From the NCBI RefSeq assembly GCF_001659785.1, contig NZ_CP015961.1:2480001-2544000 (forward strand): a stretch of 64,000 nt of DNA. The letters are read 5' to 3'. This document shows positions 15,519 to 32,900 of this stretch, piece by piece. Under the pieces are notes generated by a model. The model was not told the DNA's origin, searched no databases, and was given only the letters and a program-made list of their open reading frames with translations. Positions within the stretch are counted from its first letter, which is position 1. Each line of letters starts with the position of its first letter. Source of the stretch: Dietzia timorensis (GTDB lineage Bacteria > Actinomycetota > Actinomycetes > Mycobacteriales > Mycobacteriaceae). A program made the position numbers and the translations under genes.

Positions 15519-18053
15519 CTACAGCTTGGTCATCGGCACGCCGCCGATCAGCATGAGTTGCACCGTTCCGTAGTCACCGAAGTCTATCCGTGCTCGGGCG
15601 GTCGTCCCCGATCCTTCCACAGCCACGACCTTGCCGAGTCCGTACTTGTCGTGATTGACGCGGTCCCCGAGCTCGAGCTCCAGCGCCGGCTTCTTCGGCG
15701 CGGCCTTCGGAATGCCGCGGGAGCTTCCTCCACCGAAACGACTGCCGCCCGCCCCGGCCGCACCGATTCCGCCGAAACCGCCAGAGTCCTGGCCGAATCG
15801 CCTGGGCGCGGAATAGTCGCTGTCGATAAAGGACGAACGCTGCGGTTCCTCACGCTCCCATTCCACGACGCTGTCGGGGATCTCGCCGAAGAATCGTGAC
15901 GGTGGGTTGGTCATCGGCTGACCGTATGTCGAGCGCAACATCGCCCTGGAAATGTATAGACGCTGGCGTGCCCTGGTAATGCCCACGTAAGCCAGCCGGC
16001 GTTCCTCCGCCAGTTCCGCGGGATCCCCGAGCGCACGCATGTGCGGAAAGAGCCCGTCCTCCCAACCGACGAGGAAGACCGCCGGAAATTCCAGCCCCTT
16101 GGCGGTGTGCAGGGTCATCAACGTGACCTCGCCCGCATCATCCTCCGGAATCTCGTCGGCATCGGCGACGAGCGACACGCGCTCGAGGAACGCCTCCAGC
16201 GACCCTGGAACCGCAAGCCCCTCGTCCAGCTCTGCATCGAGCGCGTCCTCTCCACCCGATTCGCCGGGAACCTCGTCCGCAGAGCGTCGCAGAGCGGCCT
16301 CCGAGGAGAATTCACGCGCCACTCCCACGAGTTCTTCGAGGTTATCGAGACGCGTCCCGTCCTGCGGATCGTTCGATCCCTGCAGGGCATCGCGGTAGCC
16401 GGAGGCGTCGAGCACGGCATCGAGGAGATCGCCGATATCGGGAAGCGAGCCTTCCCCAGCCGCATGCCCATCCCCCTCAAGGCGTCCGCGGAGTCCATCA
16501 GTCATCTCCACGAACGCCGCAATGGACTTGACCGCGCGCGGCCCGAGGCCGGAGACCTTGCCTTCAGCCGCATCGCGAAGCGCCGAACCGAAGCCGATCT
16601 GCCGCACGTCCGCGTGGGCGACCACGGCCTGCTCGGCCTTGTCCCCGATGCCGCGCCTCGGGGTGTTGATGATGCGCCTGAGCGAGACGGTGTCTTCCGG
16701 GTTGAGCAGAATGCGGAGGTATGCGACGGCGTCCCGCACCTCTTTGCGCTCGTAGAAGCGGAGTCCGCCGACGACTTTGTACGGGATACCCAGGCGGATA
16801 AAGATGTCCTCGAGCACGCGCGAGGAGTTGTTCGTGCGGTAGAAGACCGCGATGTCTGAGTAGTTCAGGTCTCCTGAATCGACGAGGCGATCGACCTCGC
16901 CCGCGACGAAACGAGCTTCGTCGTGTTCGTTGTCGGCGACGTACGCGGTGATCGCCGAGCCCTCGTCCGACGCGGTCCACAGATTTTTCGGACGGCGCCC
17001 CTCGTTGCGGGAGATGACGGCGTTTGCCGCCGAGAGGATCGTCTGCGTCGAGCGGTAGTTCTGCTCGAGAAGAATCGTCTCCGCATTGGGGAAGTCCTGC
17101 TCGAAGTCCTCGATATTGCGGATTGTCGCGCCGCGGAACGCGTAGATCGACTGGTCCGCATCGCCCACGACGCACAGTTCGGACGGCGGAACCGAGAACT
17201 CCGGCTCCTCCTTGCCCTGTTCGCTCGCCCCGCCGCCGACGATGGTGCGGACGAGCACGTACTGGGCGTGGTTGGTGTCCTGATACTCGTCGACCATGAC
17301 ATGGCGGAAGCGGCGCCGATAGTATTCGGCGACCGGAGGATTGTTGCGGAGTAGGTCGACCGTTTCGCCGATGAGGTCGTCGAAGTCGAAGGCATTCGCC
17401 GAGCGCAGGCGCGCGGCGTACTCGATATAGACGGCTGCGATCGTCTGCGCGTTTCGGTCGCCGTCTTCCATCGCGATATCCATTGCCCGCTCCGGCGAGA
17501 CGAGCTCGTTCTTGTGATTCGAGATGGAGTTGGCGAGGTACCGCGGGGTGTACTTCTTGACGTCGAGGCCCTGCTCCTTGGCGATGATGCCGAGCAGCCG
17601 GCGCGCGTCGTCCCCGTCGTAGATCGAGAAGTTCGAATTGCGACCCGGGACAAGCTCGTATTGCGCGCGCAGGATGCGCACACAGATCGAGTGGAACGTG
17701 GCGACCCACATCCGCGAGGCTTCCGGACCGACGAGATCGGCGACACGCTCGCGCATTTCCGCAGCCGCCTTGTTGGTGAAGGTGATGGCCAGGATCTGCC
17801 CCGGGTGCGCCCCGCCCGCGGCGAGCAGGTAGGCGATGCGGCGAGTGAGCACGCTGGTCTTGCCAGAGCCGGCCCCCGCGACGATGAGCAGCGGCCCGCC
17901 ACGGTGCTCCACGGCCTTACGTTGCTGCGGGTTGAGCCCCTCGACAAGGCGCTCCACGTAGCCCGATCCCCCATTGCCGCCTTGGGTCCGGGCGGACGTG
18001 GCCACGGTGGCGGACGAATGAGCTGCGGAATTCGGGTCTGTGCGTGGAGACAT
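15519..18053 (-). CDS. pcrA: UvrD/PcrA-type superfamily 1 DNA helicase
   Basis: An 844-residue 3'-5' DNA helicase for repair and replication restart, equal in position to mycobacterial UvrD1. All SF1 motifs are visible: IVAGAGSGKTSVLTRRIAYL (Walker A), VDEYQDTNHAQY (Walker B), VVGDADQSIYAFRGA, NYRSTQTILSAANAV, VTLMTLHTAKGLEFPAVFLV and EERRLAYVGITRARQRLYIS. The C-terminal domain (ELGDRVNHDKYGLGKVVAVE) is the Tudor-like module that binds RNA polymerase in PcrA. The first 35 residues are a non-conserved Ser/Thr-rich extension. The gene is divergent from the chorismate mutase gene. Confidence 0.96.
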   Translation of the reverse strand: MSPRTDPNSAAHSSATVATSARTQGGNGGSGYVERLVEGLNPQQRKAVEHRGGPLLIVAGAGSGKTSVLTRRIAYLLAAGGAHPGQILAITFTNKAAAEMRERVADLVGPEASRMWVATFHSICVRILRAQYELVPGRNSNFSIYDGDDARRLLGIIAKEQGLDVKKYTPRYLANSISNHKNELVSPERAMDIAMEDGDRNAQTIAAVYIEYAARLRSANAFDFDDLIGETVDLLRNNPPVAEYYRRRFRHVMVDEYQDTNHAQYVLVRTIVGGGASEQGKEEPEFSVPPSELCVVGDADQSIYAFRGATIRNIEDFEQDFPNAETILLEQNYRSTQTILSAANAVISRNEGRRPKNLWTASDEGSAITAYVADNEHDEARFVAGEVDRLVDSGDLNYSDIAVFYRTNNSSRVLEDIFIRLGIPYKVVGGLRFYERKEVRDAVAYLRILLNPEDTVSLRRIINTPRRGIGDKAEQAVVAHADVRQIGFGSALRDAAEGKVSGLGPRAVKSIAAFVEMTDGLRGRLEGDGHAAGEGSLPDIGDLLDAVLDASGYRDALQGSNDPQDGTRLDNLEELVGVAREFSSEAALRRSADEVPGESGGEDALDAELDEGLAVPGSLEAFLERVSLVADADEIPEDDAGEVTLMTLHTAKGLEFPAVFLVGWEDGLFPHMRALGDPAELAEERRLAYVGITRARQRLYISRAMLRSTYGQPMTNPPSRFFGEIPDSVVEWEREEPQRSSFIDSDYSAPRRFGQDSGGFGGIGAAGAGGSRFGGGSSRGIPKAAPKKPALELELGDRVNHDKYGLGKVVAVEGSGTTARARIDFGDYGTVQLMLIGGVPMTKL

Positions 18054-18134
18054 GATGCATGTAGGTTACCGCCCGGGTGCGACATTCCGGGTACTCGCTC
18101 CGGCGTCAGCCTTTCGCACATTAGGCTGTAGTCC

Positions 18135-18452
18135 ATGAGTGATGCCGCCTCCGAGAACACGCCGAACGGCGACGCCTCTGTCGACCCCGCGGGTACCGAC
18201 GATCCTCTGTCCGAGGCCGAGATCCAGCAGCTGCGCCAGGAGATCGACAGCCTCGACGCCCAGATCCTCGCGTCGGTCAAGCGCCGCGCGGAAGTGTCGC
18301 GACTCATCGGTAAGACACGCATGGCCTCCGGCGGTACCCGGTTGGTGCATACGCGGGAACTCAAGGTCTACGAACGCTTCTCAGAGCTCGGCGAGGAAGG
18401 ACGCATGCTCGCCTCGCTGCTGCTGCGTCTCGGCCGCGGCCGTCTCGGTTAA
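18135..18452 (+). CDS. AroQ-type chorismate mutase (intracellular)
   Basis: A 105-residue all-helical AroQ chorismate mutase that converts chorismate to prephenate. Recognisable blocks are [20 protein letters not shown] and [20 protein letters not shown], and the C-terminus [11 protein letters not shown] is nearly that of M. tuberculosis Rv0948c. There is no signal peptide, so it is the cytosolic form that works with DAHP synthase in mycobacteria. The first 30 residues are polar and probably disordered. It lies between pcrA (divergent) and pgi. Confidence 0.92.
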
Positions 18453-18598
18453 GTTGCAGGTGGGCGCGGTCTGCGCCCGCGTGCCCGGCGAAGTACGTCC
18501 GCCGTCATTATTGTGGGTTGTTGAGGGCGCGAGCCGAGGGCGCGGAGGCCTTCCGTTCGAGCCTGTGCGACCTCGAATCCTTTGCTAGGAGAACAGCG

Positions 18599-20281
18599 AT
18601 GAACGCTCAGCCACCCGCGGCTGCAGCCACCGATATCTCGACGACACCGGAGTGGGACGCGGTGGGCGATGCCGTCGCCGAGCTCGCCGACACATCGCTG
18701 CGCGAACTGTTCGCCGCCGACGGCGGGCGGGCCGGTAAGTTCACCATCCACGCCTGCGATCTGCACGTGGATTTCTCCAAGAATCTCATCACCGAATCGA
18801 TCGCTACGAAGCTGTTCGCGCTCGCGAAGCGCGCCGATGTCGCGGGCAAACGCGATGAGATGTTCGCAGGCAGACACATCAACACCACCGAGGACCGCGC
18901 GGTCCTCCACACCGCGTTGCGCCTGCCCCGAGGCGAGGAGCTGTCCGTCGATGGGCAAGACGTCGCGGCCGACGTGCACGCGGTGCTTGCGCAGATGCGC
19001 ACCTTCGCCGAGCGGGTGCGTTCCGGCGAATGGAAGGGGCACACGGGCCGGGATATCGACACGGTTGTCGGCATCGGCATCGGCGGCTCGGATCTCGGCC
19101 CCGTGATGGTCGACAAGGCGCTTCGCGCTTACCAGACTGCGGGCATTCGCGCCCGGTACGTGTCGAACGTCGACCCGGCGGACCTCACCGCAGTGCTCGC
19201 GGAGATCGATCCGGCGAGCACGCTCGTCGTCATCGCGTCAAAGACCTTCACCACGCAGGAAACCCTCACCAATGCGCACGCGATGCGCAGGCACTTCGTC
19301 GCCGAGCTCGGGGACGAGTCGGCCGTGGCCAAGCATTTCGTGGCCGTGTCCACCGCGGCGGACAAGGTTGCCGAGTTCGGGATCGACACGAACCACATGT
19401 TCGAGTTCTGGGACTGGGTCGGCGGCCGCTATTCGGTGGATTCGGCAATAGGGCTGACGTGCATGCTCACCGCGGGCCCCGAGGCGTTCGACGAGTTCCT
19501 CGCCGGTTTCCACGCGATGGACACGCACTTCGCCACGGCGCCGACGCGGGAGAATCTTCCCATCATCATGGGTCTACTCGGCGTCTGGTATTCGGACTTC
19601 CTCGGCGCCCAGTCCACGGCGGTGATCCCCTATTCCGAGGACCTGTCGCGCTTCCCCGCCTACCTGCAACAGCTCACCATGGAGTCGCTCGGCAAGTCGG
19701 TGCGGCTCGACGGCGCGGACGTCGCCTACCCCACCGGCCAGGTGTGGTGGGGCGAGCCCGGCACCAACGGCCAACACGCGTTCTTCCAGCTTCTCCACCA
19801 GGGCACCCAGCTCGTGCCGGTCGACTTCATCGGTTTCGCGAATCCGGCCGAGGACGTGCAGACCTCGGACGGTTCCGGCTCGATGCACGACCTGCTCATG
19901 AGTAACTTCTTCGCACAGTCGCGCGTACTCGCGTTCGGCAAGACCGAGGACGAGATCCTCGCCGAGGACGTACCCGCAGACCTTGCCCCGCACAAGGTGA
20001 TGCCCGGCAACCGCCCCTCGACAACCGTGCTCGCGCCGCGCCTCACCCCGGGCGTGCTCGGCCAGCTCATCGCCCTCTACGAGCACATCGTGTTCGTACA
20101 GGCCGCCATCTGGGGCATCAACGCGTTCGACCAATGGGGCGTGGAGCTGGGCAAGAAGCAGGCAGGGCAACTACTCCCATATCTGACGTCGGACGCAGCC
20201 CCTACCAAGGGCGCCGCCGCCTTCGACGGTTCCACGGACGCACTGCTCGCCGCCTACCGCTCCGCCCGCGGCCGGTCGTAG
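18599..20281 (+). CDS. pgi: Glucose-6-phosphate isomerase
   Basis: Pgi (560 residues) interconverts glucose-6-phosphate and fructose-6-phosphate. Signature blocks are [69 protein letters not shown] and the Lys-containing [12 protein letters not shown]. Start ATG 18599 follows CTAGGAGAACAGCG, a clear ribosome-binding site; the frame stays open 27 codons upstream without homology. It stands in the conserved block next to the chorismate mutase gene. Confidence 0.97.
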
Positions 20282-20337
20282 ACCGCATCCCGTCGGCCAC
20301 TCGCGCGCCTTGAATGTCGCGCCAGACTGTCCGCAGG

Positions 20338-21132
20338 CTAGAGGAACTTCCGTGATACTGGCTCGGGCAGGAACCGAAGTGCGGGGTCGACCACGGACCA
20401 CGGCAGCGGAGGCACGGCGGCCTGCGCGGGTTCGCGGTCAATCGCCGCGACCAACGCCCGCACTCCCTTATCGAGGTCCGCCTTGAGCGGACTCTTGTTC
20501 TGGCTCGTCATTTCCGTCGCGATATAACCGGGCAGAATTGTCGACACCTTGATCTGCGAACCGCGGCGGCGTTGTTCGGCATGAATTCCCTGCGCCAGCG
20601 ACGTCACAAATGCCTTGGTTGCGCCGTAGGTCGTCTCGGCGCCGAGCATTCCGCGCCGCGACGCGATCGAGGAGATGAACACGAGGTGCCCGGCGCCGCC
20701 GCGGGCGCGCATGAGCTCGATGGCGACCTCGGCCTGGTGAAGAGTACCGAGGACGTTGACCTTGGCAGTCTCGGCATTCGCCCAGGCCTTGCCCGCCCCG
20801 ACCGAAGCACCCTTGCCCAGACCGGCGTTGAGAACATAGCGGTCGATTCCGCCGAGTGCGTCGTCCAGTTCCGTGAACACACGACGCACGGCTTCGGGAT
20901 CAGAGACGTCGAGCGCGGCGATTTCCACGGTGATCGACGGGTTCGACGCCAGAAGTTCTTCTCGCAGCGCCTGAAGATTGTCGAGCCGGCGCGCAGCGAG
21001 TGCGAGATTGTGCCCATGTGCGGCCCACTGGCGGGCCATTCCCTCGCCGAGGCCCGCGCTCGCGCCGGTGATGAGGATGTTCTTCCGCTCCTCGTTCTTG
21101 CTGCCGCGCTTGCCTGAAATGCCCAAAACCAC
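20338..21132 (-). CDS. Short-chain dehydrogenase/reductase
   Basis: A cytosolic SDR of about 264 residues, in the position of Rv0945 next to pgi. It has ILITGASAGLGEGMARQWAA as the NAD(P)-binding TGxxxGxG motif, then YVLNAGLGKG (NAG motif), FISSIASRRG with the catalytic Ser, and TTYGATKAF with the YxxxK pair. The substrate is unknown. The start is uncertain: the frame opens with a TTG at 21183 and has a GTG at 21132, and neither has a good ribosome-binding site. It is convergent with pgi. Confidence 0.85.
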   Translation of the reverse strand: MVLGISGKRGSKNEERKNILITGASAGLGEGMARQWAAHGHNLALAARRLDNLQALREELLASNPSITVEIAALDVSDPEAVRRVFTELDDALGGIDRYVLNAGLGKGASVGAGKAWANAETAKVNVLGTLHQAEVAIELMRARGGAGHLVFISSIASRRGMLGAETTYGATKAFVTSLAQGIHAEQRRRGSQIKVSTILPGYIATEMTSQNKSPLKADLDKGVRALVAAIDREPAQAAVPPLPWSVVDPALRFLPEPVSRKFL

Positions 21133-21383
21133 CGATACGAACCCATCTTCTCGTCGACTCGTGCGTGTGTACTTTTGGGTCAATTTACCCGGATTTCACG
21201 AACTCATGACCATTGTGGACGCGATAACCCACAGCTCATTGCCAGCGAACCAATAGAGTTAACCGGGTGAACCTGAGCGCGCAGGGATTCACATCGCCGA
21301 ATAGTGAGCGGAACATAAGCGCCGTTGCTCGCATCAGACGGTGGACACCATGAGGGCAGAGAAGAAACGAGAGGTCGACGGTA

Positions 21384-22697
21384 ATGCGCAGGACGAGGAT
21401 GATTCCGCTCCCGGTGGCACTGTGTGCCGTAGTCGCTCTGGCCGGTTGTTCGATGCTCGGTGGAGACGGCGAGGATGCGGAGGCCGGTTCCTCGACCTCG
21501 GAAACTGCGCCCCTCGATCCCGCGGCACTGGACACCGGCGATTATCCGACGGAGCCACAGCCGGAGTTCGGCGAGACCGACGACAGCAACGTCGTCGATT
21601 ACGAGACGCAGCGTCTGGCCGAATACGTGGCCCTGCCCTACGAAATCGATCCGGTGCTCTCCGAGCGCACGAGCGTGATGGCTCACACGATCCGCTCTGG
21701 CCAGAACCTCATCGGTGCGGGCTTGGGTTACGCTTCCGCAGCGATCATCGGGAACAGCGACTTTGTTTATGGCTTCGTCGGCGGTGGCGAAACCCCGACG
21801 ACGTCGATCAACGATCCCCAAAAATCGCTCATGACCGGCGTTCTGCGTTTCCAGTCGCCCGAGGGCGCCCAGTCCGCTGCCGCAGCCGTGACCCACTACA
21901 TGGTCACCGGAGAGGGGGCGCCTCCAGAGCAAGCCGCAGAAGAAGCGGAAACCTTCACGCCCGCAACACCCGAAGAGCTTCCAGGGCGGCCGGAGGCAAA
22001 AGTGGTCAGCGCCACCCCTTATTCGCCCACGGGTGACCCCGATACCGAGTGGGTGTTCTCGTTCGCCCCGAAGGGCGACTACATCACCTATAGCTTCGCC
22101 GAGGTTCCCGTTGGTGAGAAGCAATGGGCGCTGGATACGATCGCGAAGTCGCTGGAGGTCCAGGAGCCGCTGACCGAGCAGTTCGTCGGCCTCCCCACGA
22201 AGGCGCAGCGAGGCGACGCGGAAAGGCCCGAAACGCTCATCGACCAGGACAAGGTGCTCCTGTACACGATTCCCGACACCGAAGACGACAGCAATATGGG
22301 CGGCGTGACGATGGCGTCGTACGGCCCTCGCGGACTTTCTCACTTCTACTCTGATCAGCGGGCGACACATGATGCGTTGGAGAAGGCAGGCGCAGACCAT
22401 ACCGGAATGTGGGACACGACAGTGTTCCGCGCGGAAAGCAACGAAGCTGCACAGGGTCTCCTCGACGATTTTCTCCGGATCGATTCCGACGAGGGGTACG
22501 AAACCACGGAGTCGCCACAGGGCCTTCCGGACGCGAATTGTGAAAAGAGGATTGACGAGACCGGTCGCGTCGACGTGTGCTACGTGCTCAACGGCCGATA
22601 TATCGGCGTCGCCCAAGAGTTGGACGACACCAAAGCAGTCCACCAGAAGATCTCCGCACAAGCGCTAATTCTCGAAAAGGCTGATCAAGATGCCTAG
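21384..22697 (+). CDS. Lipoprotein 1 of the lipoprotein/Hsp70 array
   Basis: A 437-residue exported lipoprotein. The signal peptide ends in a lipobox, VALAGCSML, with Cys about residue 22. After an acidic linker comes a motif shared with two paralogues in this array: LDTGDYPTEPQPEFG, then QRLAEYVALPYEIDP. Later shared blocks are ASYGPRGLSHFYSD, WDTTVFRAESNEAAQGLL and the Cys-containing LPDANCEKRI...CYVLNGRYIG. The architecture resembles the DUF7373 lipoproteins of Mycobacteriales, from memory. Function unknown. Its last 8 bases overlap the Hsp70-like gene that follows, so the two are translated together. GAGAGG lies before the ATG. Confidence 0.85.
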   Translation: MRRTRMIPLPVALCAVVALAGCSMLGGDGEDAEAGSSTSETAPLDPAALDTGDYPTEPQPEFGETDDSNVVDYETQRLAEYVALPYEIDPVLSERTSVMAHTIRSGQNLIGAGLGYASAAIIGNSDFVYGFVGGGETPTTSINDPQKSLMTGVLRFQSPEGAQSAAAAVTHYMVTGEGAPPEQAAEEAETFTPATPEELPGRPEAKVVSATPYSPTGDPDTEWVFSFAPKGDYITYSFAEVPVGEKQWALDTIAKSLEVQEPLTEQFVGLPTKAQRGDAERPETLIDQDKVLLYTIPDTEDDSNMGGVTMASYGPRGLSHFYSDQRATHDALEKAGADHTGMWDTTVFRAESNEAAQGLLDDFLRIDSDEGYETTESPQGLPDANCEKRIDETGRVDVCYVLNGRYIGVAQELDDTKAVHQKISAQALILEKADQDA

Positions 22698-24573
22698 TGA
22701 TATTCACGATGCCGGCGGCCGCCGAGGGTGGACCCTCGGCATAGATTTCGGCACCTCGAACACCGCTGCCGCGCACACGGGCGCGGTCAGCGAATCGATC
22801 GAAACCGTACAACTGAGCCACAACCGCACGACCATGTCGTCGTCCGTGTTCGTCGAGTCCCCGCAGTCGATTGAAGTTGGCGACGTGGCCTTCGATATGG
22901 CGCAGAAGAATCCCAGCGGATTCGTCATGTCGCCGAAGCGCGTGGTCCCGCAGGGAAGCACCTTCGTCAACGGCTACGACATCCCCGCATCTGCGCCGGT
23001 CGCCGCGGTCCTTCGCTCGGTACTCCACCGGGCGATGACGGCGCACGACGGCCAACCGCCGGACCAACTCGTCCTCACTCACCCTGAAGCATGGACCGAG
23101 CGAGAGATCGACGTGCTTCTATCGGCCACGAAGAATCTCGGTCTCGATCCGTCGAGAATTACGACGGTGTCCGAGCCACGTGCGGCGGCACAGTATTACA
23201 CCCGTGCCAAGCCATTGGAGCCGGGCTCCAAGATCGGCGTATTCGATTTCGGTGGCGGCACGCTCGACGTTGCCGTACTCCAATCCACGCCCGAGGGCAC
23301 CTTCAACGTGATCTCGGCACACGGAGACAACCAGATCGGAGGTAAGAACTTCGACGCCCAAATCCGGCGGTGGGTCGACGCCCAGCTGGAGGAAGAACAC
23401 CCCGACGCTCTCGGGTACCTTCGCACGTCCGCATCCATAGAACAGCTCTACAGCCTCGATGACTCGATCCGGAGGGCAAAGGAGCTGCTGTCGGAGACGC
23501 AGACCGCGACGATCTCGGTGCCCTCGGGAGCCGAAAGCATCAAATTGCAGATCACCCGGGGCGAGCTCGAGGCAATCATCGCGCCCGCATTGCAGGCGGC
23601 GTACGACCTCACGCAGCGCACCTTCGCCACTGCGGGGATTTCTTCGCCCGCAGATTTGACGGCCTTGTACCTCACCGGCGGTTCCTCGCGAATTCCCGCC
23701 GTTCACGAGCTGCTTTCGACGCTCGGCCCGATCGCCACGCTTGACGATCCCAAGACCGTGGTCGCTCAAGGTGCGCTTTCTGCCGCCGCGCCGATCTTGC
23801 GTGGACTCGAGCCCGGCGCCCGGACTGCCGGGCCCGGTCTCTACGGCGGCCGAATAGGTAACCAGCATGCCGGCCAGCATTACCCTGAGAAGGCGCAGCC
23901 GTCCGCCTCACCAAAGGGAACCTCCGGCGCAGGGACGGGCGCGAAAAAGCGAGCCCTTCCACTGGCGCTGGCCGCGATCGCCTCCCTCATCGTCGTCGCG
24001 ATCGTCGGCACGCTGGTCGTGCGGGCCGTCTCGAGTAACGAGTCCAGCGGCGAAACGCAGGAAACAGCGGCACCTGCGGCGCAGCAGGCCGACAACACTC
24101 CCGTCACCGAAACGGAAGACATCATCGATGCTCTACCCCGCAGGCTCGCCGATGAGATCGACGCAGAGTCGTGTCAGGCTACGGGCGAAACAACGAACGG
24201 AGGCCGGGAGCTCCGATGCGACTTCAACTCCGGCAGCACGCTTGTTCCCAAGCCAGACGAGGGCCCGGGATTGGAAAACCAGCTCGTCGTCTCCGTCGAC
24301 CCTGATGATGCCGAAGCTCGTGTCATAGCAATTCGAAACGGTAGTACTCCCAATATTTCGTCAGGCGATGGGGCGCCTGTCGATGAACTGCTTGAGAACT
24401 CCCAGCGCACGGCGGCCGCGCGCATCCAGGGCACCGAAGGGCCCGACGACACTCTCGATTCGATTGACGTCGAGTACGCGAACAATTCCACAGGAGCTCT
24501 GGTTCATGTGACCGAATTCCGGACTCTCGACCAGGCCCGGCAATTTCTCGCCAATTCGGCTCTCATCAACTAG
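22690..24573 (+). CDS. Membrane-anchored Hsp70-like ATPase 1
   Basis: A 627-residue protein whose residues 1-380 are an Hsp70/actin-fold nucleotide-binding domain: LGIDFGTSNTAAAH (phosphate 1), IGVFDFGGGTLDVAV (phosphate 2) and LYLTGGSSRIPAV (adenosine). There is no Hsp70 substrate-binding domain. After a low-complexity linker comes one transmembrane helix at about 421-448 (LALAAIASLIVVAIVGTLVV). The last 170 residues should lie outside the membrane; they hold two conserved Cys in CQATGETTNGGRELRCDF and end in a block shared with the paralogue (ELLENSQRTAAARI). The ATPase faces the cytosol. It is coupled to lipoprotein 1 by an 8-bp overlap. No function is known to me. Confidence 0.87.
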   Translation: MPSDIHDAGGRRGWTLGIDFGTSNTAAAHTGAVSESIETVQLSHNRTTMSSSVFVESPQSIEVGDVAFDMAQKNPSGFVMSPKRVVPQGSTFVNGYDIPASAPVAAVLRSVLHRAMTAHDGQPPDQLVLTHPEAWTEREIDVLLSATKNLGLDPSRITTVSEPRAAAQYYTRAKPLEPGSKIGVFDFGGGTLDVAVLQSTPEGTFNVISAHGDNQIGGKNFDAQIRRWVDAQLEEEHPDALGYLRTSASIEQLYSLDDSIRRAKELLSETQTATISVPSGAESIKLQITRGELEAIIAPALQAAYDLTQRTFATAGISSPADLTALYLTGGSSRIPAVHELLSTLGPIATLDDPKTVVAQGALSAAAPILRGLEPGARTAGPGLYGGRIGNQHAGQHYPEKAQPSASPKGTSGAGTGAKKRALPLALAAIASLIVVAIVGTLVVRAVSSNESSGETQETAAPAAQQADNTPVTETEDIIDALPRRLADEIDAESCQATGETTNGGRELRCDFNSGSTLVPKPDEGPGLENQLVVSVDPDDAEARVIAIRNGSTPNISSGDGAPVDELLENSQRTAAARIQGTEGPDDTLDSIDVEYANNSTGALVHVTEFRTLDQARQFLANSALIN

Positions 24574-24636
24574 GGCTCTCGCCTCACCGGACACACAAGC
24601 AAGTATTTCACCATCACGACCGGGAAAGACGTCTCC

Positions 24637-25917
24637 ATGAAAACCTCTCCGCTGCGCGGCGGAATCGCCGTTGCACTAACCGCCACAGTCGTACTCGGCG
24701 GTTGTTCCTCAGGCACCGCTTCCTCCGATCAGGATGAATCAGCCGCGACTCCGACCGTCGATCTTGACTCTCTCGATACGGGAGATTTTGCCACCGAGCC
24801 ACATGGCGACTTCGGCCATTCGGACGAAGCGACAATGACTCAATTCGACGCACAAAGGTTAACCGAGTTCACGGCCTTTCCCGTCGAGATTGATCCACTC
24901 TATGAAGCATCCGACGAACTCAACATCCAAATACACACGTCGGTTGAAGACGGCTATGGATCCGATACACAAAATGAGGTCAAGACAGAACTCGGATGGG
25001 ACTTTGGCACTGTCGGCAGTGGTTACGCGAATGCGCCCGATGATGATCCCAAGGACCAGCTCTTCTTTGAGATCTCACATTTCCCAGATGAGGAGTCCGC
25101 TGCCGAGGCCGCAGTGCGTATGGGTGAGATGGAACGCGATCGTGAGGCCCTGATGCCAGGGGCCAAACCATTACCCGTCAGTAGAACCCCGGTGGAGATC
25201 CCCCGGTACCCCGACGCCGTCGCCACAACGGAAATAAGTCGCGTGGATCCCGAGGACGACACGCTCCAGGTCCTGTCGTATTCCACCAGGGGTGAATTCG
25301 TCGTGCGGACCTCCGTGACGGCCCCACAGGAAGACCAGGACCGCGCCGTCGAAACGGTGGCGAGGACTCTGGATGTGCAGAATCCCCTTCTCGACCAATT
25401 CACGGCCGCATCGACATCTGACTCCGAAGAGCCGTCTGAGTCCGACGTCAACACCAAGATCGACCAGGGCGAAGTAATTCGGTACGCACTTCCCGAACCA
25501 TCGAAGCCCCAATACGTCGAGGGCTCCGCTCCTGGGGAGTACGGCCCTAGAGGATTCGGTCATTTGTCGAGGGGCGGCCCAAGAATGGTCGATATCTTGA
25601 ACACAGCCGGCGTTCAACACATCGGGGTTTGGGGATCCACGGTGTTCAGGGCCGGTGACGAGGAACGTGCCACTCGCCTCGACGAGGATCTGAAGGACTT
25701 CTATCTCGACTTCGGCTTCTTTGAGGACGAGGCTCCGGCAGATATTCCACGCTCGGCGTGCTATTTCGCACCAGCCGGAACGAACCGCGTCAATCAGTGT
25801 CTGGTGATTGTCGGCAAGTACGTCGGTCTTGTCACCAATATCGGTCCCGTCTCCGGAGTCCATCAGGAGTTGGCAGCGCAATACGCCATCCTCACACAGG
25901 CCGACCAGGAGGCGTGA
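24637..25917 (+). CDS. Lipoprotein 2 of the lipoprotein/Hsp70 array
   Basis: A 426-residue paralogue of lipoprotein 1. The lipobox is VVLGGCSSG. Shared blocks are LDTGDFATEPHGDFG, QRLTEFTAFPVEIDP, GEYGPRGFGHLSRGG, GVWGSTVFRAGDEERATRL and a Cys pair near the end (SACYFAPAGTNRVNQCLVIV). It follows Hsp70-like 1 by 63 bases and precedes Hsp70-like 2 by 51 bases, all on the plus strand. Base composition is visibly less GC-rich than in the conserved block to the left. Function unknown. Confidence 0.85.
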   Translation: MKTSPLRGGIAVALTATVVLGGCSSGTASSDQDESAATPTVDLDSLDTGDFATEPHGDFGHSDEATMTQFDAQRLTEFTAFPVEIDPLYEASDELNIQIHTSVEDGYGSDTQNEVKTELGWDFGTVGSGYANAPDDDPKDQLFFEISHFPDEESAAEAAVRMGEMERDREALMPGAKPLPVSRTPVEIPRYPDAVATTEISRVDPEDDTLQVLSYSTRGEFVVRTSVTAPQEDQDRAVETVARTLDVQNPLLDQFTAASTSDSEEPSESDVNTKIDQGEVIRYALPEPSKPQYVEGSAPGEYGPRGFGHLSRGGPRMVDILNTAGVQHIGVWGSTVFRAGDEERATRLDEDLKDFYLDFGFFEDEAPADIPRSACYFAPAGTNRVNQCLVIVGKYVGLVTNIGPVSGVHQELAAQYAILTQADQEA

Positions 25918-25968
25918 TGTTGCTCCGCACCCTCCATCAGCGGCAAAACGAACGAAGGGAGGATCAAC

Positions 25969-27768
25969 GTGTCTACATCGTCTAGCGATGCCTGGACCCT
26001 CGGAATCGACTTCGGAACGTCGACAACTTTTGCGGCCCACTCGCATTCGCCCGGAAGAACGATCGCATCTATTCGATTGAGCCACGATGCCTCGACTATG
26101 CAATCCTCCGTATTCGTCGAATCGCCAGAGCTGGTGGATGTGGGAGCCGTGGCGATCGACAAAGCTAGAGCGAATCCGACAGGATTCCTGTCCGCGCCGA
26201 AGAGGACGATCGCGCAGGGCACTGCCCACGTCAACGGGTACGACTTGCCTGCGTCGGTACCAATCGCCGCGATTTTTCGCTCTGTCATCGATCGCGCCGC
26301 CGCGGAACACAACAGTGTCCCCCCGGAATCACTGGTAATCACACACCCCGAATCCTGGTCGGAACGGGAAGTCCAGGTTCTTCTCGACGCTGCAGCCGCA
26401 GTAGGTTTCGAGCGCACGCGTGTCCGAACGGTTTCCGAAGCGCGCGCAGCCGCGCATTATTACACCCGCGCCAAGGGACTCCGGTCCGGCTCGAAGATCG
26501 CCGTGTTCGACTATGGCGGCGGCACGCTAGATGTTGCTGTGTTGTCGATGAACGACGATGGCTCTTTCCAGGTGCTCGCCGCCGACGGCGATGTCAATAA
26601 TGGCGGCAGGTACCTCGATTCCTTGATTCGCGAATGGGTCGACGAAGAGCTGAGCACAACGCACCCCGAGGCGCTTGCCTATCTCCGCAGTTCAGCGCGC
26701 GTCGAGCAACATTACGCCTTGGCCGATTCCATTACCCGAGCCAAAGAGCTCTTGTCAGAATCGAGGACGGCTCGGATACTCGTGCCCACCGGCGAGGGCC
26801 AGTTGTCGCTCGAACTGAGCCGCGGGGTACTCGAAAAAATCATTGACGCGCCCCTGCGGCACGCACACGATATGACGGCGGCTGTGCTTGAACGGGCAGG
26901 AATCACCTCGGCCTATGACCTCGAAGCGTTGTACCTCACCGGTGGCTCGTCTCGAATCCCGCTCGTCGCCGAGCGTCTAGCCCTACTCGGGCCGATCACC
27001 ACGCTGGATGATCCCAAGGCAGTGGTCGCGCTCGGCGCTCTCACTGCTGCTCAGCCCGTAGCCAGGGCTCAGCGCCTCACCGATGTTGCCGCTGATTCGG
27101 GCACGAACGGGCGCACCGGTGCCCCTCAGAAGTCTCACGGTGCACCCTCGTCCAATGCCTTACGCGGAACCAGAACCCCCCACCGTGGCAAATGGGTCGC
27201 CGGATTCGCGATCGCGGCCGTCATTGTGCTCGCGCTTGGCGGAATCGTCTGGTTGACGCTCAGCGGTGGAGATGACAATAGCGTCCCGACTGAATCTGCA
27301 GAGCCAGCGACTGACGTGAGCCCTGACGGGCCGGCCACAACTAAAGAAGAAGTCCTTGCGGCACTTCCGTCGCAGTTCGCTCAAGATCTCACGGCCTGCG
27401 AGATCTCGGGAGAAACGACGTACGGCGGCCTCGAAATTCGATGTGACTTCCTCGATGAAGCCGCGTCGTTGGCTGGGACAGACGAAACCCACAGGCCACA
27501 CTTCTTCACCGTGTCGGCCGATCCCGACTACACGACCAGCGAACTTGCAGCAATGCGCAAGGGGTTACGCGAGTCCAGCATGGCGGAAACCAACGAACTC
27601 CTGGAAAACAATGCTCGAACCGCCGCTGCGGCGATATCTAACAATGAACTTTCCACGGACCTCAAATACTCGAACTCCGAAACCCACGTCAGCTTCCAAA
27701 TTTTCTCATTCGAATCATCCGAGGCGGCCAAAGACTTCCTCAAGCGTGGCGGCTTCCTCGCGGATTAG
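25969..27768 (+). CDS. Membrane-anchored Hsp70-like ATPase 2
   Basis: A 599-residue paralogue of the first Hsp70-like protein with the same plan. The actin-fold ATPase (LGIDFGTSTTFAAH, IAVFDYGGGTLDVAVLS, LYLTGGSSRIPLV) spans about residues 1-365. One membrane helix lies at about 408-430 (VAGFAIAAVIVLALGGIVWL). The outside domain again has a Cys pair (CEISGETTYGGLEIRCDF) and ELLENNARTAAAAI. The start is GTG 25969, set by GAAGGGAGG just upstream. The long DNA-level likeness to copy 1 indicates tandem duplication. Role unknown; coupling of cytosolic ATP state to an outside partner is inference. Confidence 0.87.
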   Translation: MSTSSSDAWTLGIDFGTSTTFAAHSHSPGRTIASIRLSHDASTMQSSVFVESPELVDVGAVAIDKARANPTGFLSAPKRTIAQGTAHVNGYDLPASVPIAAIFRSVIDRAAAEHNSVPPESLVITHPESWSEREVQVLLDAAAAVGFERTRVRTVSEARAAAHYYTRAKGLRSGSKIAVFDYGGGTLDVAVLSMNDDGSFQVLAADGDVNNGGRYLDSLIREWVDEELSTTHPEALAYLRSSARVEQHYALADSITRAKELLSESRTARILVPTGEGQLSLELSRGVLEKIIDAPLRHAHDMTAAVLERAGITSAYDLEALYLTGGSSRIPLVAERLALLGPITTLDDPKAVVALGALTAAQPVARAQRLTDVAADSGTNGRTGAPQKSHGAPSSNALRGTRTPHRGKWVAGFAIAAVIVLALGGIVWLTLSGGDDNSVPTESAEPATDVSPDGPATTKEEVLAALPSQFAQDLTACEISGETTYGGLEIRCDFLDEAASLAGTDETHRPHFFTVSADPDYTTSELAAMRKGLRESSMAETNELLENNARTAAAAISNNELSTDLKYSNSETHVSFQIFSFESSEAAKDFLKRGGFLAD

Positions 27769-27813
27769 AAATACAGACACTTGATCATCACAAGAAAGAA
27801 AGGGACTACACAC

Positions 27814-29094
27814 ATGAAGAATTCGAAGATCCTCGCCGCGGCCTCGGCTCTCGTCATCTCCACCGCCCTCCTCGCGGCGTGTGGTGACGACGATTCCACC
27901 GACTCTGCCGCCCCAGAAAGCGCCGAGCAATCCAACACCGAAGGCGTCGACGAGTCGGCACTCGATACTGGCGACTACCCGACCGAGCCCGCCGAAGAAT
28001 TCGGAAAACCCACCGCCGAGCAGATCGGTGACATTGAAGGCCAAAGGCTCGCCGAGTATTCGATTTTGCCGTTCGAAGCCGATCCCGCCTTCACCGAGGG
28101 CGGGCAGTTCCCGGTGCCCGTCCTACGCTCGTTGTCCAATATCTCCGGCCTTCTCCCCGAGAACGCGACGGAGATCTTTGGCGAGGCCCCCATCAATGCG
28201 GGCTACACGGTCGGCGGTGCCACAAAATCCACGGACGGCTCAGACCAGTCGAATTACCAGCATTCAGTGCTGAGCTTCGCGACTGCGGACGAGACTGGGC
28301 GGATTGCGAACGACCTGCACAATGCAGATGTCACGGCCTCGACAGAAGGTCCGGCAACGGCCGAGGAGGTACCGGGGCAGCCGGGCACCCTGGTCACCTC
28401 CACGCCTCAAGGGGAAGGCGACTCAGCGAATGTTCGCGTCCGCGCATTTACCGCGCACGGCCCGTACTTGTTCATCGACCAGTTCATCGTTCCGAACGAC
28501 CAGAAGGATAAGGCACTCGAATCGATCGGCCGCGCGGTCGATCAGCAGGTTCCACTAGCCGACCAGTTCCCGCGCACCCCGAACTCCGACGAGCCCGGCG
28601 GCGGCGAAGAATCGTGGCCCGACATCGATCAGGACAAGATCCTGATCTATGCGCTTCGCGACGAAGCCGACGATCCAGCACTACTCGGCGCCGATGGTTC
28701 CGTATTCGGTCCTCGTGGCACCGCCGGGCTTCGGCTGAATTCCGACGTGTGGCTCGACCTTCTCCAGGAGGTCGGTGCCGAGCACACCGCGATTTCGGCA
28801 ACGAATGTATTCCGTGCCGCCGACGATGCGGGAGCCGAGAAGATCGTCAACGAGTATCGGCGCGAGTTCGAAGAGCACGGGGCTGCGGAAGTCGAGGGGC
28901 CCCAGGGTCTTCCAGATGCCCTGTGTGTCGATGACTCGTCGTCGCTGTCACCGAAGAAGTGCATCATTCAGGTCGGACGCTATGTCGCGGAGATCCCCGA
29001 AATGCAAAGCGACACCGACGTCGAGGACATGAAGCAGCGCACGGCAGCGCAGTACATGATCTTGTCGAAAGCCGATCAGAAGCAGCCGAACTAG
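27814..29094 (+). CDS. Lipoprotein 3 of the lipoprotein/Hsp70 array
   Basis: A 426-residue third paralogue. The signal peptide MKNSKILAAASALVISTALL runs into the lipobox LLAACGDD. Shared blocks are LDTGDYPTEPAEEFG, QRLAEYSILPFEADP, FGPRGTAGLRLNSD, ATNVFRAADDAGAEKI and LPDALCVDD...KKCIIQVGRYV. No Hsp70-like gene follows; the gene ends tail to tail with nei, the two stops overlapping in CTAG. The start at ATG 27814 gives a proper signal peptide; the frame is open 11 codons further up. Confidence 0.85.
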   Translation: MKNSKILAAASALVISTALLAACGDDDSTDSAAPESAEQSNTEGVDESALDTGDYPTEPAEEFGKPTAEQIGDIEGQRLAEYSILPFEADPAFTEGGQFPVPVLRSLSNISGLLPENATEIFGEAPINAGYTVGGATKSTDGSDQSNYQHSVLSFATADETGRIANDLHNADVTASTEGPATAEEVPGQPGTLVTSTPQGEGDSANVRVRAFTAHGPYLFIDQFIVPNDQKDKALESIGRAVDQQVPLADQFPRTPNSDEPGGGEESWPDIDQDKILIYALRDEADDPALLGADGSVFGPRGTAGLRLNSDVWLDLLQEVGAEHTAISATNVFRAADDAGAEKIVNEYRREFEEHGAAEVEGPQGLPDALCVDDSSSLSPKKCIIQVGRYVAEIPEMQSDTDVEDMKQRTAAQYMILSKADQKQPN

Positions 29095-29972
29095 CGCTGG
29101 CAGTTCGGGCAGTAGAAGACGGTCCTGGCGAAGCGGTCGGCGGCGCGAGAGTCGCCGGCCAGCTCGCCGAGCTCTCCGGCAATGATTGCCGTCCCGCACC
29201 GCATACATGGCTCCCCGCCGCGCCCGTATACCCAGTGGCGCCGGCGGGGTTTGTCGATTCCGGTGAACATGCGGATCTGGCGGTGCACATTGATCGCCAT
29301 CGTTTTGCGGGCAAGCATGAGCAGCGGCTCGAGCCCGCCTACCTCGTCGACGTCCGTCACCGTGCGACGTGGATCGATCCCCCGCAGGAAGAGCAGCTCA
29401 CTGCGATACTCGTTTCCGATCCCCGCCACTAGCCGCTGGTCGAGAATCGCCGCGCCTAACGCGCGATCGCCGTCGGCGCGAATCCGGCGCAGCGCCTCGG
29501 CCCCGCTCCAGTCCCCGACGCGAAAGGGCTCCCCCGGCCGCGGCTCGCCGAGTAGGTCGGGGCCGATATGTTCCACTCGCGCCGCCGCCTCGCCTGGCGA
29601 AAACACGTGGAGTTCCCCGAGCTCCACGCCGACTGCCTCGGCTCCGCCGTCATCGCTGGACGTGCGCAGGACGACGCGCGCGAGGAACGCCGGAAACGTC
29701 CACTTCGTCCCCGCGTCGTGGGCGAACCATTTACCTTCCATCTTCAGATGAGAATGGACGACGGCGGACGGCACATCTGTCGTGGAGTGCGCCGCCCCTC
29801 CCACATCGATGAACAGGTGCTTGCCCACGGCCCGCGCTTGCAGGAAGCGCCGGCCGGTCAGGTCAACTGTGGCGAACTTCGGCACGCGGAAATCGGTGCG
29901 CGTGAGCGTGTGGCCTGCCATCGCCTCGTGAATGCGGACGGCGGCGCGGTGGACCGTGTCGCCCTCAGGCAC
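29091..29972 (-). CDS. nei: Fpg/Nei family DNA glycosylase (endonuclease VIII type)
   Basis: A 293-residue base-excision glycosylase/AP lyase. The start is GTG 29972 because the catalytic proline must be residue 2, giving (M)PEGDTVHRAAVRIHEA. It has the helix-two-turn-helix segment DQRLVAGIGNEYRSELLFLR and a C-terminal zinc finger (CMRCGTAIIAGELG ... FYCPNC). The start overlaps the end of lhr by 8 bases, so the two are translated in sequence; lhr-nei is also the mycobacterial order. The PEGDTVHR start is the Nei rather than the MutM form. Confidence 0.93.
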   Translation of the reverse strand: MPEGDTVHRAAVRIHEAMAGHTLTRTDFRVPKFATVDLTGRRFLQARAVGKHLFIDVGGAAHSTTDVPSAVVHSHLKMEGKWFAHDAGTKWTFPAFLARVVLRTSSDDGGAEAVGVELGELHVFSPGEAAARVEHIGPDLLGEPRPGEPFRVGDWSGAEALRRIRADGDRALGAAILDQRLVAGIGNEYRSELLFLRGIDPRRTVTDVDEVGGLEPLLMLARKTMAINVHRQIRMFTGIDKPRRRHWVYGRGGEPCMRCGTAIIAGELGELAGDSRAADRFARTVFYCPNCQR

Positions 29973-32900
29973 GTCCGGCTCCCGAGCCGATGCCCGCGCG
30001 CAGCCGCAGCCCCTGCGGGGAGGCGCCGAACCCCGCACCGCGGAGCTGCTCGGCCCATCGCGATGCTGCGGCGGGTTCGCCGTTAATGGTATGAACAGTC
30101 ACCGAACCGATGTGGCCGTCGCGCACGAGGGCGGCAAGCCTGCGAACGGCGAGCCCGACCGCATCCTCACGCTCGCTGTACACAAGTAGAGTCTTGCCGC
30201 CGCGCTCAAGGTAGAAGGTTAGTTCGCCGTCGACGAGGGCGACGAGAGCGCCGGATTTGCGGCCCGCGCGACTCCCGTCGCCCGGAGGCTGCGGCCACGG
30301 CAGAGCCGCGCCATACGGGTTGGCCGGATCGGTGGCGGCGAGCACGTGAACATCGGGCATGTCCTGCCCCCTGGACCATGTGGTCTCGTCGGCAGTGGCC
30401 TCGAAACCGCGGAGGCGATCGATGGTCGCGCCATCGGCGAACTGTGACGCCCCGAGCCCTTCGATGTAATAGCCGCGGCGCGGACCCCCGGAGTCCTCCA
30501 TCGCCGCGAGCACCTTGTATACGCCCGCGAAGCCGCCGCTGATGCCCTCGGACTCGACCACTCCGCGGGTGACGACGCCGTGGCGGGCGAGCACGAGTTC
30601 GGCCGCTGCGTGCGCCCGCACCGTCGCGTCCGGCTCGGGCGAAGGGGTCGCCGACCAGCGGCCGGCGACGACCGGCGGGGTGCGCATGCCGGTGCCGATG
30701 GTGCCGCCGACGCCTGCGGTGGCGCCTCCGGCAAGAGCTACGCTACCGAGGCGCGCGCGGCCCAGGCGCGGGGCGCGGGACGAACGACTTCCCCGACCGC
30801 GCGAGGTCGATCGGTGCGCGGGCGCGCCGGAGCCGGAGGATTTTCCGGCGCTCCCCGCTGCCGGGAGCGCCCCGGCGAGCACCGAGCGCAGCGGCGCGAA
30901 GGTATCGCCTTTGGCGAGGCCGAGCCAGGCGAGTTCCCACAGCGCGTCGCGCACCGCGATCTCCGAGATGGCTGGAATCGCGGCGCCGTCATCGGCGGTG
31001 CCTGGTTCGGAGCGGCGATCCGCCTCGGCCTTTGCGGCGGCGACGATGTCGCGGAAAAACTGTCCGCCGCCGTGTTCGAGGACATCGAGAACAACGCGAT
31101 GGAGTGGTCCGAGGTCCGCGCGGGCTGCAGTGAGGTCGGCCGCGGGGAGGGTGAGCGGCGCCGAATCGGCCGGGTGGAGTGAGACAAGCCCGTCGCGGGC
31201 GCCGGACCGGCCACGACCACACCAGAGGACCTCACCGGCGGCAAGCAGTTCGTCGAGCATTCCCGGCTCGTAGTCGCGCACGCGTGGGGCGAGGACGAGC
31301 GGCTCCCAGGCCGAGAGCGGCAGCGCGGAGCCGTCGAGTTGCTCGATGACGGCGAGGAGCCCGTCGACCCCGTGTTCCTGATTGCCTCGGCCGAGGCCCT
31401 GCCATGCCGGGAGGAAGCGGCCGAGGGCTGCGGGCTCGACCGGTTCGATGGCCGCACGGAGCTCGGCGAGGCTACGTTTGCGGATGCGGCGCAGAACTTC
31501 CGGGTCGCACCATTCCGTTCCGGTTCCGCCAGGGCGGAATTCACCCGCGACGAGCTGATCGTTCCCCGTGAGCCGGTCGAGCACGCCGCGGGCGATGGAC
31601 GCGCCGATGCCGAACCGCTCTGCGATCGCGGCGGCGTCGAAGGGGGCGTGGGTGCGGGCGTAGCGGCGCACCAGCTCGCCGAGGGGATCGTCGCCGGAGT
31701 CGAGGAACGTTGCCGCGGTGCCCGGTGGTGGTGGGACGCCGATTCCGTCGCGGAGTCGGCCGAGATCCTCGCTGGCCACCCACCAGTTCGTGCCCGCGAA
31801 GGACACCTCCGCGGCGCGGGATTCGCCGCTAAGCTGCTCGAGGTTTCGATCGACCTCGGCGGGATTCTCGGCGCGCTCGGCGAGCTCCTCCCGGGTGAGC
31901 GGACCGAGCAGGCGCAGCAGGTCCGCGATCGCCTCGGCGTCCCGCGCCTTGTACCCCTCGGCCCGGTGCTGCAGGCGGTCCTCGACCTGTTCGAGTATCG
32001 CGGGGTCGAGCAGCTCGCGCAGTTCGATCCGGCCCAGGAGCTGGCCGAGCAACGAGGGATCGAGGCTGAGCGCGGCGGCCTTACGTTCGGCGAGTGGCCC
32101 GTCGCCCTCGTAGACGAAGGCGCCTATGTAGTCGAACATCAGCGCGGCGGCGAACGGCGAGGCCGTGGACGTTGTGACCTCGGAGACCCGAATCTCCCCC
32201 GAGGCAATCGAACCGAGAACCTCCTCGAGCGCCGGCACGTCGTACACGTCCTGCAGGCATTCGCGGACGGCCTCGAGAATGATGGGAAAGTCCGGGTACT
32301 GCTTGGCTACGTCGAGCAGCTGCGACGACTTCTGGCGTTGCTGCCACAGCGGCGCACGCTTGCCCGGGTCGAGCCGCGGCAGGAGCATCGCGCGCGCCGA
32401 ACACTCGCGGAACTTCGAGGCGAACAGCGCCGTGTCCGCGACGTGCGAAGTGACGATGTCCACCGCTTCCGCCGGGTCGAAGACGATCTCGTTCGCGCCG
32501 ACGGGCGGCTGCCCGGCGCCGGATCCCCACGGATCGGCGCGGAGGGAATCGAGGGGCGCGTCGAGATCGGGAACGGCGCCGTCATCGGCACCTCCCACGT
32601 CCGGGACGCGCAGGATGATGCCGTCGTCGTGGACGACGGGGACGGCGTCGAATCCGTGGCGGGAGGCCAGGCGGGCGCGGATCGCCTCGGCCCAGGGCCA
32701 GTGCACTCCGGCGCCGAACGGTGAGTGGATGACGACGCGCCAGTCCCCCACCTCGTCGCGGAAGCGCTCGACGAGGATGGTCTTGTCCGACGGAACGACG
32801 GACGTGGCCTCGACCTGTTCGGCGACGAAGCGGCGGAGGTTCTCGCGGGCGCGCTCGTCGAGCCCCGCAGCCTTCAACCGTTCCTCTACTTGTGTCGAAC

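Follow-up and report, generated by a model that had tools for sequence, protein, structure and literature searches.

DUF7373 lipoproteins and transmembrane Hsp70-like ATPases alternate in an inserted gene array of Dietzia timorensis, a candidate cassette of an envelope-stress dynamin system

The window analyzed here, 64,000 nucleotides of contig NZ_CP015961.1 from the 3.6-Mb genome of Dietzia timorensis, contains five consecutive plus-strand open reading frames (21384-29094) in which lipoproteins alternate with Hsp70-like ATPases, raising the question of what these two families might do together and how they came to lie here. An earlier note on this DNA had placed the array at these positions, where we find it, and had read it as an inside-to-outside device working across the membrane. 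We give an even chance to the reading that the array was acquired and locally duplicated, and is a cassette from an envelope-stress dynamin system that an extracytoplasmic function (ECF) sigma factor probably controls, with the ATPase and the lipoprotein as its sensing or gating half. The genes and their subregions, in window positions, are as follows.

21384..22697, plus strand: DUF7373 lipoprotein 1, 437 residues, lipobox Cys22; Cys386/Cys399
22690..24573, plus strand: Hsp70-like transmembrane ATPase 1, 627 residues, nucleotide-binding domain to residue ~372
23947..24003, plus strand: transmembrane (TM) segment of ATPase 1, residues ~420-438, by hydrophobicity
24007..24570, plus strand: outside domain of ATPase 1, Cys495/Cys510, the two Cys being invariant in 33/33 chosen rows
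24637..25917, plus strand: DUF7373 lipoprotein 2, 426 residues, lipobox Cys23
25969..27768, plus strand: Hsp70-like transmembrane ATPase 2, 599 residues, GTG start
~27184-27240 and 27259-27765, plus strand: TM segment and outside domain of ATPase 2, Cys477/Cys492
27814..29094, plus strand: DUF7373 lipoprotein 3, ATG start

The first two genes overlap by 8 bp, as had been described, and the remaining intergenic gaps are 63, 51 and 45 bp, so that a single transcript is likely. The last gap is counted from the ATG of lipoprotein 3, which yields a normal lipoprotein signal; the earlier note had used a TTG start at 27781. At the thresholds used, the whole genome holds three DUF7373 genes and three TM-type Hsp70 genes and, since all of these DUF7373 genes and two of these Hsp70 genes sit here, the array is not a chance arrangement.

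Pfam HSP70 matches of both ATPases end at positions 373-377 of the 599-position profile and thus cover the nucleotide-binding domain only. The Hsp70 substrate-binding domain is missing, as claimed before, and we therefore do not class these proteins as Hsp70 chaperones. Their nucleotide-binding motifs are kept: when both ATPases, the third copy of this genome and one fusion protein (see below) are aligned with the genome's own DnaK, whose numbering is used, no variation is seen in the columns of K70, E148, D171 and T176 or in the adenosine-motif GG; the four residues presumably have the catalytic roles familiar from DnaK biochemistry. The ATPase domain is followed by a basic stretch, a single hydrophobic segment (starting at residue ~420 in ATPase 1 and ~406 in ATPase 2) and an outside domain of ~188 and ~169 residues, respectively, in agreement with the single TM helix and the outside domain with one Cys pair proposed for each protein. 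In 80 of the 81 homologous rows scored, a few of them doubled sequences, positive charge is higher on the N-terminal side of the TM segment, which by the positive-inside rule places the ATPase domain in the cytosol. The pattern CxxxGETTxGGxExRCDF, offered as the conserved core of the outside domain, fits both window proteins, but only its two Cys are invariant across 33 homologous domains (31 of 48 Cys-pair-type rows from relatives plus the two window proteins; other outside types were excluded).

The outside domain has no convincing relative in Pfam (best E 0.095, in one member) or in the PDB (best E 0.69), and its homology to the halves of DUF7373 was rejected (hhalign probability <1%). The outside part differs between relatives: the ATPase of locus L078 carries an RCC1 propeller over the Pfam cut-off, that of L066 a possible NTF2-like domain below it, and more distant Hsp70s carry PQQ-type repeats (L141 over the cut-off, L131 below). 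RCC1-type outside parts are seen at L078:7005-9362 by Pfam and at L083:6404-8770 and L088:5999-8347 by the same Cys spacing and length, and genes resembling ATP-binding cassette (ABC) transporters adjoin the RCC1-type ATPase genes in L078 and L083.

All three lipoproteins score over the Pfam cut-offs for DUF7373 (PF24088) and DUF7373_C (PF24092), and each shows, by reading, a signal peptide and a lipobox Cys. The blocks LDTGDYPTEP, QRLAEY and YGPRG, listed earlier as common to them, are shared but approximate, with LDTGDFATEP, QRLTEF (lipoprotein 2) and FGPRG (lipoprotein 3) as variants. Among relatives, 65 of 76 frames pass a crude rule for lipobox and signal peptide, several of the 11 failing frames being visibly merged or mis-started. 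The N- and C-terminal halves of DUF7373 match each other (hhalign probability 66%, E 5.5e-5), which is suggestive of an internal duplication. No convincing PDB relative was found (best E 0.074); no function is described for DUF7373, and the family name had no match in the literature searched.

To what extent do the two families belong together? In a sample of 251 genomes of the family, with the ATPase called at E 1e-45 per genome and >100 bits per locus, DUF7373 is present in 98 and the ATPase in 64; 45 genomes have both, 53 DUF7373 only, 19 the ATPase only and 134 neither (Fisher p 6e-9, relatedness not removed). A phylum sample of 296 genomes gave five with a match over the cut-off, all from this family, and one sub-cut-off match outside it. 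The earlier note had proposed a search for paired lipoprotein and Hsp70-TM genes, and the pair indeed lies at one place in 39 of the 45 genomes with both families: 38 with a fetched ATPase locus (mostly 13-18 kb) that holds DUF7373 or a fusion, plus the window itself. Of the six others, G116, G132 and G044 have clusters that run up to, or close to, the end of a contig; the rest are G028, G052 and G224.

As judged from their sequences, natural fusions are the best evidence that the ATPase and DUF7373 families work together across the membrane. In both sampled species of one genus (G001 and G032; 94% identical), a single uninterrupted frame near the dynamin pair encodes Hsp70 domain-TM-DUF7373-DUF7373_C, in which DUF7373 replaces the Cys-pair outside domain; in L097, the one tested against Pfam, the fused domains exceed the cut-offs. 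Such fusions place the Hsp70-fold ATPase and DUF7373 on opposite sides of one TM helix.

The gene neighborhoods of relatives reveal further associated genes that the earlier note could not see. We counted 69 fetched ATPase loci from 59 of the 64 ATPase genomes, chosen by score, the TM segment being presumed in part of them; several second copies and five genomes, all from one genus that lacks DUF7373, were left out. Among the loci counted, the ATPase of L105 is possibly an ordinary Hsp70, whereas those of L101 and L102 have a different end. Genes in relatives were called with a simple open-reading-frame finder and profiles built for this analysis. Near the ATPase lie DUF7373 at 39 loci, a fusion at 2, the dynamins dyn1 and dyn2 at 44 each, an acidic-repeat protein at 47 and an ECF sigma factor at 35. 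The common order is a lipoprotein gene divergent from dyn1-dyn2-ATPase, followed in many relatives by the acidic-repeat protein, a C39-like or FHA-ABC protein, a small acidic protein and the ECF sigma factor; in a presumed Rhodococcus group (g27), the lipoprotein and ATPase genes adjoin on one strand. One representative each of dyn1 and dyn2 scores over the Pfam cut-off for Dynamin_N, and the sole PDB match of either at E 0.01 is IniA, 6J72 (E 1e-15 and 3e-5, respectively). One acidic-repeat protein matched no Pfam model, its DxDxDG-type repeats being, on our reading, possible calcium-binding sites, and no known domain was found in one small acidic protein. Outside the family, dynamin matches occur at 7 of 22 actinobacterial ATPase loci (L127-L148), and the ATPase-dynamin link may therefore predate DUF7373.

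The cluster or its core also occurs on Rhodococcus and Gordonia plasmids (L202-L205). An independent annotation of a Rhodococcus opacus plasmid gives the order hypothetical protein (DUF7373), dynamin, GTPase, Hsp70, hypothetical, C39 peptidase, hypothetical, sigma-70; an R. qingshengii plasmid and a Gordonia plasmid carry the DUF7373/dynamin/dynamin-GTPase/Hsp70 core, and a Rhodococcus plasmid typed as conjugative (L205) carries the ATPase with a hypothetical gene divergent from it. Among the literature matches listed, we recognized no description of an Hsp70-TM/DUF7373/dynamin cluster. The leads PMC8467076 and PMC6104087 are, in the parts of these papers available, unrelated or marginal, the latter mentioning a DnaJ-like domain on a cyanobacterial dynamin.

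A candidate promoter motif shared across these clusters suggests common control. Upstream of the array we find the following candidate.

21310..21335, plus strand: ECF-type candidate promoter GGAACAT-N14-GCATC, first base 74 bp before the ATG of lipoprotein 1

The motif, GGAAC-N15-19-GCATC, was spotted by inspecting lipoprotein/dyn1 intergenic stretches. Its strict form, GGAAC[ACT][AT]N13-17GCATC, has 83 sites in L039-L118 (80 loci, including 11 fetched for DUF7373, namely L042, L108-L116 and L118, and one from this genome, L107) versus 4, 3 and 4 in first-order Markov copies. Because the motif was derived from part of these loci, and the region upstream of the array was viewed alongside them, neither the excess before DUF7373 nor the match in the window is a fully independent result; the occurrence of the motif before other families is independent of its derivation. 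In a wider set of 92 sites, in which some contigs stand twice (e.g., as L048 and L122), the motif precedes acidic-repeat genes at 27, DUF7373 at 19, the ATPase at 7, dyn1 at 6 and the small acidic protein at 5. Within 300 bp, the strict motif precedes 17 of 44 DUF7373 genes near an ATPase, none of 20 DUF7373 genes elsewhere and 10 of 578 other genes, a count that leaves out 11 DUF7373 frames without a recognized lipobox and has L042 and L115, whose clusters run off contig ends, placed by hand in the "near ATPase" group. Sites in the D. timorensis genome include those before the array, before a small acidic/sigma operon and before a 314-residue lipoprotein gene; the last (G000:C1:2346295, L224) stands after a gene for a 316-residue lipoprotein and is a further regulon candidate. 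The genes thus appear to share an upstream -35/-10 pair of the kind expected of an ECF regulon, and we infer that an ECF factor reads the GGAAC/GCATC motif and that this factor is the linked sigma factor.

How did the array reach this site? It is bounded by two minus-strand genes, both named by reading.

20338..21183, minus strand: short-chain-dehydrogenase-like gene at the left flank, the insertion edge
29091..30038, minus strand: Nei-type DNA glycosylase-like gene at the right flank

These two genes lie ~50 bp apart in all five congeners examined (L211-L215, picked from 20 that carry the right-flank gene). The 7.9-kb array is therefore an insertion, missing from that site in each of the five, a feature that had also escaped the earlier note. 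The insert has a G+C content of 60.8%, its flanks 65.5% and 70.1%, and third-position G+C is 0.64-0.74 in its genes versus 0.77-0.87 at the flanks. Among the 22 genomes of the genus in the sample, including this one, DUF7373 occurs in three and the ATPase at cut-off in two; the third DUF7373 genome, G248, has a partial ATPase at a contig end. In FastTree phylogenies (local supports), the two window ATPases are sisters (97) and the three window lipoproteins group together (80), the first two most closely (95), and repeats of 113 and 125 nt lie within the two ATPase genes at a spacing of 3264 nt, suggesting that the lipoprotein-ATPase unit was duplicated in place. The third ATPase of this genome (G000:C1:3353948-3355795) sits on a long branch apart from the window copies and tail to tail with an ECF sigma gene; its locus (L107, G000:C1:3347000-3362000) has no DUF7373 nearby and lies near a ferritin-like gene, named by reading, and an L,D-transpeptidase. 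In the smaller genome of L050 (genus g3, perhaps Corynebacterium), two lipoprotein/ATPase sets surround a transposase-like gene, and the low third-position G+C of the second set (0.48-0.55) suggests a recent transfer. A viral origin found no support: PHROG gave no lipoprotein match, and two viral-contig scans, which detect close relatives only, gave no DUF7373 relative. No tRNA was found in the window, an Rfam scan of 18000-32000 gave nothing at gathering scores, and sigma-70 promoter and terminator scans gave no clear excess.

In the mechanism that we propose, including its physical contacts, the direction of its signaling and the thing sensed, envelope stress would activate the ECF factor, thereby raising lipoprotein, ATPase and dynamins together. 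The one-pass protein, combining an internal Hsp70-fold ATPase with an external sensor-like domain, would be partnered with the DUF7373 lipoprotein on the outer face, where lipoprotein and outside domain may detect or mark damaged envelope. Nucleotide exchange in the Hsp70 domain could then recruit or release two IniA/IniC-type dynamins acting on the inner face, so that the nucleotide state of the ATPase would gate their assembly for membrane fission or repair. In this genome, the dynamins and the sigma factor would act in trans, since they are encoded elsewhere. More tentatively, these ATPases might represent a new class of transmembrane receptor, in which an Hsp70-fold ATPase switch with swappable outside domains passes envelope damage, with a lipoprotein co-receptor, to dynamins.

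The linkage, the fusions, the shared motif, the kept catalytic residues, the topology, the swappable outside domains and the plasmid clusters all support the reading of the array as a cassette from a dynamin system. Several results weigh against it. At 11 of the 69 ATPase loci, no dynamin, DUF7373, acidic-repeat or sigma gene lies nearby, and the dynamin pair of this genome (G000:C1:1779282-1781581) is ~720 kb from the array, with none beside it. The strict motif is missing before 27 of the 44 ATPase-linked DUF7373 genes, 28 of the 92 sites in the wider set precede no labeled gene, and the 21 sites in this genome compare with 11 in a reversed control, an approximately twofold excess. As many as 53 of the 98 DUF7373 genomes lack this ATPase at E 1e-45, which touches the refutation that the earlier note had set for itself, namely that the two families be found mostly apart. 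A mirror-tree test for a specific lipoprotein-ATPase link (30 loci) was not specific: distance correlations are 0.87 for lipoprotein-dyn1, 0.84 for ATPase-dyn1 and 0.82 for lipoprotein-ATPase, the last falling to 0.33 with dyn1 held fixed, so that the lipoprotein-ATPase pairing is not special within the cluster. The device claim of the earlier note is thus favored by the pairing and the fusions, but drawn into doubt by these correlations and by the genomes that have DUF7373 without the ATPase.

The same correlations, together with the shared motif, would be expected if the families merely shared a stress regulon without touching each other. This unlikely alternative would also suit the DUF7373 genes found with Ser/Thr kinases at 4 of 9 fetched ATPase-free DUF7373 loci (L109-L111 of genus g22, and L116), but a natural fusion of exactly these two families argues against it. 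At L109-L111, DUF7373 forms tandem arrays (up to 12 matches per genome), and PknB-type kinases are interleaved with or follow the DUF7373 genes there and at L116; such kinases are a possible alternative partner for the lipoproteins.

The sigma genes at 35 of the 69 loci, and the third ATPase copy of this genome lying tail to tail with its own sigma gene, could instead mean that the Hsp70-TM protein is an anti-sigma-like regulator, whose nucleotide state is shifted by an outside signal and the lipoprotein to free the linked ECF factor, with the dynamins only downstream. The motif before the small acidic/sigma operon and the small acidic protein tested, with no known domain, fit this scheme as well, but 34 of the 69 loci, some cut by contig ends, have no nearby sigma gene, and the anti-sigma role could belong to the small acidic protein instead; we hold the scheme to be unlikely. 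Distinctly doubtful is a role for the ATPase as a chaperone or motor bound to the membrane that handles the sorting, insertion or extraction of the lipoprotein, with neither signaling nor dynamin control. The close pairing, the fusion and an Hsp70 nucleotide-binding fold with all catalytic residues would suit it, but the substrate-binding domain is missing, the lipoprotein can be handled without the ATPase, as in the many DUF7373 genomes that lack it, and in the fusion DUF7373 stands where the outside domain would be, as expected of a receptor more than of a client. Finally, a plasmid- and island-borne accessory system for defence or surface exclusion, directed with membrane dynamins against phage or mating, is improbable: the patchy distribution, the insertion at a site otherwise conserved in the congeners examined, the plasmid-borne clusters, the ATPase on the conjugative-type plasmid and the matches of dyn1 to PADLOC LeoBC (E 2e-19) and LeoA (2e-13) speak for it, but PADLOC matches none of the ATPase and two lipoproteins tested, leaving Leo-type matches for the dynamins only, PHROG and the two scans for close viral relatives gave nothing for the lipoproteins, and regulons driven by ECF factors are more typical of envelope-stress responses. 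These alternatives overlap in part, and their probabilities need not add up to certainty with that of the dynamin-system cassette.

If that reading is correct, two candidate regulators of IniA-type dynamins can now be named, which share a candidate promoter motif and occur naturally fused to each other. In mycobacteria, such dynamins have been connected with drug tolerance, with the release of vesicles and with the repair of membranes, and to our knowledge no signal has been described that tells them where and when to act. An Hsp70-fold ATPase would also join the catalytic domains that bacterial one-pass receptors use.

Of known systems, the mycobacterial iniBAC operon is close in its dynamins, both cluster dynamins tested being IniA homologues that stand side by side; such a pair is present at 44 of the 69 ATPase loci and absent beside the window array. 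Drugs that act on the cell wall are reported to induce iniBAC (PMC6715688, PMC11077946), which is described as controlled by IniR (PMC6715688, PMC11077946) and repressed by HpoR (PMC13413693). Its product IniA shows membrane fission activity in vitro (PMC6715688) and contributes, together with IniC, to the release of vesicles (PMC11077946). The present cluster differs in its ECF-type motif and linked sigma gene in place of IniR control, and a text search of the main text of PMC6715688 and PMC11077946 found no mention of Hsp70. With Hsp70/DnaK, the ATPases share the nucleotide-binding domain and its catalytic residues but carry a TM helix and an outside domain in place of the substrate-binding domain. 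PknB-type transmembrane Ser/Thr kinases combine an inside catalytic domain, one TM and variable outside domains. The ATPases follow the same inside-TM-outside plan, and it is such kinases that adjoin DUF7373 genes elsewhere; however, their catalytic domain is an Hsp70-fold ATPase and not a kinase. Where receptor kinases pass the signal by phosphorylation, the proposed Hsp70-fold receptors would act likewise through their ATPase.

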